A stretch of DNA of 64,000 nt from Rhizobium lusitanum (GTDB lineage: Bacteria; Pseudomonadota; Alphaproteobacteria; Rhizobiales; Rhizobiaceae). Under the pieces are notes generated by a model. That model was not told the origin of the DNA, searched no databases, and saw only the letters and a list, made by a program, of their open reading frames with translations. The translations under genes and the position numbers were made by a program. Shown here in pieces: positions 61,844-62,919 of this stretch; the stretch's first letter is position 1; each line of letters begins with the position of its first letter. The DNA lies in contig NZ_CP050307.1 of NCBI RefSeq assembly GCF_014189535.1, forward strand, positions 744,001 through 808,000. Direction: 5' to 3'.

Positions 61844-61877
61844 GGGCGAGACGCGAAGGGAGACGACGCAGCGTGCC

Positions 61878-61966
61878 GAGACCCCGAGCGACTCCCTCCG
61901 CCAGCATGATCTGGTTCAGGTTCAAAGGGTGCTTCTCAGCCCGTCATCGACGGACGCCCCTGTCTC
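61878..61966 (-). ncRNA. TPP riboswitch (THI element) controlling thiM
   Basis: Read on the minus strand, the aptamer contains the conserved GCTGAGA (61933-61942 region), then CCCTTTGAACCTGAACCAG and CATGCTGGCGGAGGGA. The closing stem pairs GAGAC (61962-61966) with GTCTC (61878-61882). Order and spacing match the THI box. It ends 50 bases before the thiM start, leaving room for the ribosome-site hairpin, which indicates translational control. Confidence 0.93.
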
Positions 61967-62075
61967 TCATCACCGTCTTTTTCGCAGAGAACGGCTGCGC
62001 TGTCACCAGAAAATCGTCGGCCGTATCGTAATCGAGGTGAGCCAAAGCGAGCGGACACCGCGAGGCAGCTCCGCA

Positions 62076-62098
62076 ACCCATGCATCAGTTGCATGGGT
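62076..62098. repeat. 9-bp inverted repeat upstream of the DUF1127 gene
   Basis: ACCCATGCA and TGCATGGGT form a perfect hairpin with a 5-base loop, 118 bases before the DUF1127 start. It could be an operator or hairpin between the divergent thi and DUF1127 transcription units. The remaining sequence from 62099 to 62216 presumably holds the promoter; I cannot assign a sigma factor with confidence. Confidence 0.5.
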
Positions 62099-62216
62099 GC
62101 ATTGAGACCTTAGCTATACAATCAACGAGGGTTTCGCACTACATCACTCTCATCGGAGCGGATGGAGCGCCAAGCACGGCAGCTCTGCTTCGAATACCCT
62201 AGGAAAGGGGATCATC

Positions 62217-62363
62217 ATGAACGTAGCACGCTCTTTTAATAACTGGCTCAAGTATCGTCAGACGGTCGCCGAACTGGGCCGTATGTCCACGCGCGAACTG
62301 CATGACCTCGGCATCGGCCGTAGCGAAATCCGCAACGTCGCTCGTGCGGCCGTTGTTCGCTAA
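62217..62363 (+). CDS. DUF1127-family small protein
   Basis: This 48-residue basic protein, MNVARSFNNWLKYRQ...ELGRMSTRELHDLGIGRSEI, is a typical short alphaproteobacterial DUF1127 protein with the conserved L-x-x-M-(S/T)-x-R-E-L-x-D-(I/L)-G-(I/L)-x-R-x-(E/D)-I pattern. AGGAAAGGGG precedes the ATG. In Rhodobacter sphaeroides a DUF1127 protein (CcaF1) is an RNA-binding protein co-transcribed with CcsR small RNAs bearing CCUCCUCCC loops; the same arrangement follows here. Confidence 0.9.
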   Translation: MNVARSFNNWLKYRQTVAELGRMSTRELHDLGIGRSEIRNVARAAVVR

Positions 62364-62400
62364 CAGCGTAAAACGCTGATCTACAGTCAAAATTCTGCTA

Positions 62401-62430
62401 GCGCCTGCTTCCTCCCGAGCGGGCGCTTTT
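62401..62430 (+). terminator. Terminator hairpin after DUF1127 with a CTTCCTCCC loop
   Basis: GCGCCTGCT pairs with AGCGGGCGC (one G-U) around TCCTCCCG, followed by TTTT. The loop reads CTTCCTCCC with its flank, one base from the motif of the downstream hairpins, so this terminator is itself a likely member of the hairpin family. Confidence 0.82.
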
Positions 62431-62570
62431 GCTTTGTACGCGCCACAGGCGAAGCGCGGCGTTTCCGGGTGAGGGGCTTGCCGCCTGAAAGCCGCCCGAT
62501 TTTCGCATAATGCATAGCTGCCTTGCAAATAAATGCCTATGAAGTAAGCAGGTCTAGTGTATAGTCATAT

Positions 62571-62729
62571 TCATCGAAGCAATGCACCTCCTCCCGCAGA
62601 GCTTCGATGATGCGGGCGCCCTTATCCTCCTCCCAAGGTCGCCTGCGGGAACGGCAGCACTCCTCCTCCCAGCTGCTGTTCGGTTCTTTTCGAAAAGCCT
62701 GCCGCACCTCCTCCCGCGGCAGGCTTTTT
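62571..62729 (+). ncRNA. Array of four CCUCCUCCC-loop hairpins (cuckoo/CcsR-type small RNAs)
   Basis: Four hairpins in 159 bases each show CCTCCTCCC in the loop (62587-62595, 62626-62634, 62662-62670, 62707-62715). The stems are TCATCGAAGC/GCTTCGATGA (62571-62610); GCGGGCG/CGCCTGC with inner CCTT/AAGG (62612-62646); GAACGGCAGC/GCTGCTGTTC with one G-U (62649-62681); and a perfect 13-bp stem AAAAGCCTGCCGC/GCGGCAGGCTTTT (62693-62728) that is also a Rho-independent terminator. Stems differ in sequence but loops are constant, which shows selection on an exposed anti-Shine-Dalgarno-like motif. Location after a DUF1127 gene matches CcsR1-4 of Rhodobacter. Two tandem two-hairpin RNAs are the likely products. 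The other 556-base gap sequence (62431-62570, 62730-62919) shows no gene. Confidence 0.88.
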
Positions 62730-62919
62730 CGTTTTGGGCCGAGCCGAATTTCTCCGGCGACCCGACTGGGAACCAGTCAGATCCTCACGCGCAAATCCTG
62801 ACGCCAATGTGATCCCGCCCTCTCGTAAAAATTGATCATGCCCCTATGTGCGTAATAGAGAACGCGCTAGATCGGTCGGTACGTCGCAATTGTATCCGCC
62901 GAAAATCAGGAGTTTGAGC

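Follow-up and report, generated by a model that had tools for sequence, protein, structure and literature searches.

The window, a 64,000-nucleotide stretch of the Rhizobium lusitanum genome (contig NZ_CP050307.1, positions 744,001 to 808,000), carries near its end, in plus-strand order, a DUF1127 gene, a terminator-like hairpin, an array of four hairpins and a glutathione-transferase-like gene. Upstream of the DUF1127 gene, a thiM-type hydroxyethylthiazole kinase gene lies on the minus strand and is preceded by a TPP riboswitch (61876-61971, minus strand; 64 bits, cut-off 54.3). The DUF1127 gene (62217-62363, plus strand) encodes 48 residues plus a stop, as the preliminary description of this DNA had proposed, and its match to Pfam PF06568 (58 bits against a cut-off of 23.3) confirmed the assignment. 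No model matched in an NCBIfam profile search of the protein. It had also been claimed that standard tools would miss both the gene and the RNA, but Pfam and Rfam detect both parts. At the 20 best homologous plasmid places, a 'DUF1127 domain-containing protein' is annotated in 14 cases, five records are unannotated throughout and one has none there; the collection used has no RNA genes, so this check bears on the protein gene only. In Rhodobacter sphaeroides, CcaF1 binds RNA and participates in the maturation of CcsR RNAs (PMC10253847), and short DUF1127 proteins of Agrobacterium are reported to act on PhoR via protein contact (PMC12501420). Any contact of the R. lusitanum protein with RNA is putative.

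The array (62571-62729) consists of four consecutive hairpins, each exposing CCUCCUCCC, and the last of them is a terminator. All are on the plus strand: H1 at 62571-62610, H2 at 62611-62647, H3 at 62649-62681 and H4 at 62692-62729. Exact copies of CCTCCTCCC stand in the unpaired loops at 62587-62595, 62626-62634, 62662-62670 and 62707-62715, respectively, and the H4 hairpin is followed by a U run, which makes it an RNA terminator. H4 is absent from the list of the terminator scan, in which the loop limit was 8. The 164-nt array stretch folds at -77.5 kcal/mol compared with a shuffle mean of -48 (z = -6.8), and none of 200 shuffles was as good. Among single hairpins, H1 (z = -5.0) and H4 (z = -6.2) fold better than shuffles, and H2 and H3 folded alone are little better (z = -1.1 and -1.6). 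The fold places internal loops in H1 and H2, and the earlier claim of perfect stems was thus overstated. The 9-mer CCTCCTCCC alone is not enriched, with 77 sites in the 6.9-Mb genome against 74 for its reversal. Its clustering is above chance: 31 of the 77 sites fall in nine clusters with copies 36-45 nt apart, and no two of the 74 reversed sites lie within 100 nt of each other (the closest pair, read from the site list, is about 106 nt apart).

The array is a member of the alpha-r14 family (RF02344), to which Rfam assigns 62606-62731, from H2 onwards, at 105.2 bits against a gathering cut-off of 58.8. This covariance match supports the earlier reading of an anti-Shine-Dalgarno ('cuckoo'-type) RNA adjoining a DUF1127 gene. 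The more specific proposal of a CcsR-type RNA was not borne out, because the CcsR1 model (RF02791) scored 36.8 bits, under its cut-off of 65.3. The ar7 family was also rejected, since its overlapping Rfam match was under its cut-off. As in RF02344, there are at least three hairpins with CCUCCUCCC loops and stems that are variable yet paired, although the H4 stem hardly varies. As in DUF1127-cuckoo ('CIN1') loci, a short DUF1127 gene is adjacent to CCUCCUCCC hairpins in the window. Three- and four-hairpin CCUCCUCCC RNAs of Rhizobiales were described in 2011 (PMC3927594), and DUF1127 has already been linked in print to CcsR-like RNAs, under the name of CIN1 locus (PMC10253847).

The R. lusitanum genome has nine alpha-r14 loci above the cut-off, and a search of 60 genomes of the genus, this one among them, gave 3-9 loci in every genome. 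DUF1127 lies directly upstream of five of the nine arrays in the genome. At the array at C5:238 kb, two DUF1127 genes lie downstream instead of upstream, and there is no strict VtlR/LsrB-type box; at C1:46 kb, what lies upstream reads as the 3' remnant of a DUF1127 gene together with the terminator. The stretch 62571-62731 is 98% and 96% identical to the copies at C1:46 kb and C1:298 kb, and the flanking DUF1127 sequences differ; array identity despite differing flanks suggests possible recombination or gene conversion between copies. Among 80 DUF1127 loci, which were the best of 104 found by protein alone, an array lies downstream in 54 and upstream in nine more within the fetched flank.

Comparison across arrays supports the predicted structure. 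In an alignment of 41 arrays, which were selected for four exact CCTCCTCCC so that loop constancy there is by construction, 23 of the 49 pairs changed on both sides, with 80 such cells, and 0 of 500 shuffles reached either value. Slid structures gave at most 13 pairs and 37 cells, and the result for further pair types was weaker (8 of 500 shuffles). In the H4 stem, eight of 14 pairs never vary across these arrays. In other sequences, pairing is poor at the outer end of helix 1 and at the ends of helix 3, which makes both shorter than their counterparts in the window. When up to two mismatches were allowed, 196 of 215 loops were exact in the 54 arrays among the 80 loci, a count in which two of the five-loop counts look spurious. 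A set of aligned loci (the window and 27 others; 28 of 30 loci passed a filter of at least two CTCCTCCC, and L252 and L271 were dropped) gave identical loops of H2, H3 and H4 in all 28 rows and of H1 in 23. Stem identity to the window is 66-89% for H1-H3 and 99% for H4. Covariation and the aligned loci agree that H1-H3 undergo compensatory stem change with nearly constant loops in relatives, as had been predicted. H4 departs from this pattern, since its loop and stem are both constant. The claim that the stems are unrelated holds among the hairpins within one array but not for the H4 stem between arrays. The tract between the DUF1127 terminator and the box ahead of the array is 45% identical to the window in the aligned loci, and the box is 86% identical.

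Boxes of the VtlR/LsrB type precede both the DUF1127 gene and the array. The published box is given as GCAT-N3-TG-N3-T (PMC7486931) and as CAATGCAGCCATGCA (PMC12595884). The box before the DUF1127 gene, TGCATGGGTGCATTG (62090-62104, plus strand), has its GCAT 126 nt before the ATG; it has one mismatch to the published VtlR motif and is among the three best of 35 genome sites. The box before the array, TGCATAGCTGCCTTG (62511-62525, plus strand), has its GCAT 75 nt before the first loop and two mismatches to the motif. Both positions are fixed across loci. Against a background of one GCAT-N3-TG-N3-T per 4,908 positions, 44 of the 54 arrays that follow a DUF1127 gene have this motif 74-75 nt ahead of their first loop, and 59 of 80 DUF1127 genes have it 123-128 nt ahead of their start; the strict box is missing at the expected slot in the other 10 arrays and 21 genes. 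A set chosen by covariance model has a box at 74-76 nt in eight of the nine R. lusitanum arrays and in 28 of 30 arrays from other genomes, the latter being the best scorers, all with three loops. In the R. lusitanum genome, five DUF1127 genes have an array downstream; the strict box occurs only at the window gene and at C4:1860 kb and is missing in three. Of the four arrays without an intact upstream DUF1127, three retain the box at 75-76 nt and the one at C5:238 kb does not.

The 15-base motif CAATGCAGCCATGCA, read on the other strand with up to two mismatches, has 35 sites in the genome compared with one for the reversed pattern. Ten of these are the boxes of eight of the nine arrays, the box of the DUF1127 gene in the window and that of one AbcR-family sRNA. 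A one-mismatch match is also found away from the nine arrays, at C5:2347638-2347652. A pattern derived from the array boxes was weak, with 74 sites against 40 for the reversed control when up to three mismatches were allowed. This pattern precedes three of the six AbcR-family sRNAs, and two of them are among its 12 sites with up to two mismatches. AbcR1 is a published LsrB/VtlR target (PMC7486931). One AbcR-family sRNA with a box (C4:1583932-1584009) lies about 1.2 kb from the array at C4:1585 kb, on the other strand. A LysR gene adjoins an AbcR pair in the R. lusitanum genome, and judged by this gene order it may be lsrB.

The promoter of the array is less clearly marked. A possible -10 element, TATAGT (62560-62565, plus strand), can be read from the sequence only, and transcription would start near 62572. 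A scan of the locus with a general sigma-70 consensus found no promoters (0.4 in shuffles); the sigma-70 promoter signature of NfeR1 is CTTAGAC-N17-CTATAT. Compared with the LsrB motif of NfeR1, TGCA-N6-GCAT, the sequence at the box of the window array lacks the TGCA half, and TGC-N11-GCA of the NtrC type was not seen in the window array at the position of the NfeR1 NtrC site.

In Sinorhizobium meliloti, LsrB activates and NtrC represses NfeR1, and the anti-Shine-Dalgarno motifs of NfeR1 pair with the ntrB translation start and mRNAs are silenced (PMC10746234). As a target in R. lusitanum, ntrB was rejected: when the array loops were paired with the ntrB start, as we placed it in the ORF preceding ntrC, 34-69 of 100 shuffles were as good. 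The four array loops and the DUF1127 terminator loop gave no pairing clearly above 100 shuffles with the start regions of the DUF1127, glutathione-transferase-like and thiM-type genes, and the best of these pairings, H3 on DUF1127, was equalled by 8 of 100 shuffles. Across the genome, GGGAGGAG-N3-10-ATG has 54 matches (two being the same site) against five for the reversed pattern. Thirty of the 54 sites were opened, and ORFs of 80 residues or more were present at 24; after removal of one duplicate, 23 were scanned with Pfam. They comprised seven solute-binding proteins, one ABC ATPase, two other transporters, nine members of other families and four ORFs without a Pfam match. The solute-binding proteins among the candidate targets agree with NfeR1, but transporter genes were counted without a baseline and the result is only suggestive.

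We propose, with a probability of about 0.78, that the locus comprises two neighbouring units, a DUF1127 gene and an alpha-r14 RNA that silences mRNAs, and that both are activated by LsrB. The array, a four-hairpin sRNA of the NfeR1 or 'cuckoo' type, would have a promoter of its own. LsrB/VtlR, a redox-responsive activator of the LysR type, would probably bind the box at 62511-62525 and turn on an RNA some 160 nt long whose 3' end is at the H4 terminator. Each CCUCCUCCC exposed in a loop could then pair with the purine-rich Shine-Dalgarno sequence of mRNAs, probably many of them for transport proteins, and block their translation; the identical loops may provide redundancy and dose. The DUF1127 gene, equipped with an LsrB-type box and a terminator of its own, would be a second unit, and the small protein and the RNA might therefore be made under the same signal.

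The preliminary description had instead suggested a single stress-RNA operon as in Rhodobacter. On this rival reading, a stress promoter upstream of DUF1127 would drive both parts, and RNase E with the DUF1127 protein would release the RNA. Such an operon, with an RpoHI/RpoHII promoter, is published for CcaF1-CcsR1-4 of R. sphaeroides (PMC10253847). In two Martelella loci (L125 and L142, about 2401-2780), the array lies 24 and 21 nt after the DUF1127 stop with no box between, an arrangement that looks like the single-operon form; by eye, DUF1127 is itself preceded, at a distance of about 100 nt, by a GCAT-type sequence. The U run of the DUF1127 terminator in the window is short, so read-through is possible, and the three R. 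lusitanum DUF1127 genes with an array downstream but without a strict box would also fit an operon. However, the window has a DUF1127 terminator and then, between it and the array, a box whose distance to the first loop is constant, and three of the four R. lusitanum arrays without an intact upstream DUF1127 retain this box (all except that at C5:238 kb). The operon is thus distinctly unlikely for this locus. A somewhat less unlikely alternative is that the family is real but the window copy is little expressed and is kept similar by recombination with other copies. Northern blots in S. meliloti gave reliable detection of just one of the six NfeR1 copies (PMC7143759), and the window copy may therefore be silent; the nine copies in the genome and the near identity of the window array to two C1 copies with differing flanks are consistent with this. 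On the other hand, the box, loops and terminator are well conserved in the aligned loci, whereas the intervening tract is not.

The DUF1127 terminator raises a further question, because it had been described as the first of five equal hairpins, exposing CUUCCUCCC. A terminator scan found one site where shuffles average 1.2, and the hairpin at 62400-62427 (plus strand) folds with z = -4.3. Only CCUCCC is unpaired in this fold, and the preceding UU pairs with the GA that follows, so that CUUCCUCCC is not fully exposed. If the hairpin were a real fifth anti-Shine-Dalgarno module, the 3' end of the mRNA would be regulatory in this lineage. CCTCCC is found at the terminator loop in 11 of the 28 aligned loci and, among 57 DUF1127 genes followed by a separate array, at the terminator of 8 (a count that omits the two Martelella loci, which are without a separate terminator). 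However, it is absent from the four closest aligned loci, L244-L247, and from the terminators of four paralogues in the R. lusitanum genome, and the motif is partly paired in the fold. In the aligned loci the loop, taken as the ten bases 62409-62418 of which the outer four pair in the fold, is 81% identical to the window and the stem 95-97%, the reverse of H1-H3. Because the loop diverges faster than the stem, the idea of five equal hairpins fails; for this first hairpin the outcome is the one that the preliminary description had itself named as refuting its reading. On these alignments the DUF1127 hairpin does not count as a fifth conserved module. We consider a regulatory role of this hairpin very unlikely.

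A broader version of the two-unit reading can be imagined, in which the DUF1127-cuckoo locus of Rhizobiaceae is a two-transcript module that may have arisen by the splitting of a Martelella-like operon, gene and RNA each having an LsrB/VtlR box at a precise position, and in which in one Rhizobium lineage the terminator loop also became an anti-Shine-Dalgarno element, the end of the mRNA sharing the job of the RNA. We give this extended scenario little credence. In searches of open-licence papers, no description of paired LsrB boxes or of LsrB control on both DUF1127 and the array was found, and the paired boxes are one small addition to an otherwise ordinary locus. If our reading of the boxes holds, one redox-responsive activator would govern both a translational silencer present in many copies and a small DUF1127 protein. 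Joint control by LsrB would bear on the multiplicity of anti-Shine-Dalgarno RNA genes that rhizobia retain, with nine in this genome, and on why DUF1127 genes travel with such RNAs. The comparison of loci also sorts the hairpins with loops under selection from the one without.

Among known systems, the window array resembles alpha-r14/NfeR1, SmelA075 and SmelA099 of S. meliloti in its CCUCCUCCC loops, variable stems and terminal hairpin. It shares with alpha-r14/NfeR1 several copies per genome and, upstream, a putative LsrB-type site, and with the SmelA099 model its four hairpins. NfeR1 differs in having three hairpins and an NtrC site, whereas the window array has four hairpins, no NtrC-type site at that position and DUF1127 upstream. 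The three-hairpin member SmelA075 gave a strong signal once cells had been shifted to 40 degrees (PMC2873474), so stress induction of the alpha-r14 family is already in print. CcaF1-CcsR1-4 of R. sphaeroides, the 'CIN1' type, is alike in having a DUF1127 gene followed by CCUCCUCCC hairpins, but it is one RpoH-driven operon, whereas in the window a terminator and a box lie between gene and array and the CcsR1 score is below its cut-off. AbcR1 and AbcR2 (alpha-r15; RF00519) are likewise anti-Shine-Dalgarno sRNAs, AbcR1 being activated by LsrB/VtlR, but their structure and family are unlike those of the window array. VtlR is an activator of DUF1127 genes in Brucella and, in Agrobacterium, of an orthologous small gene (PMC7486931, PMC12595884). 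These genes, atu1667 in Agrobacterium, are similar small genes under VtlR, and the published passages describing them mention no adjoining array, whereas the DUF1127 gene of R. lusitanum is followed by one.
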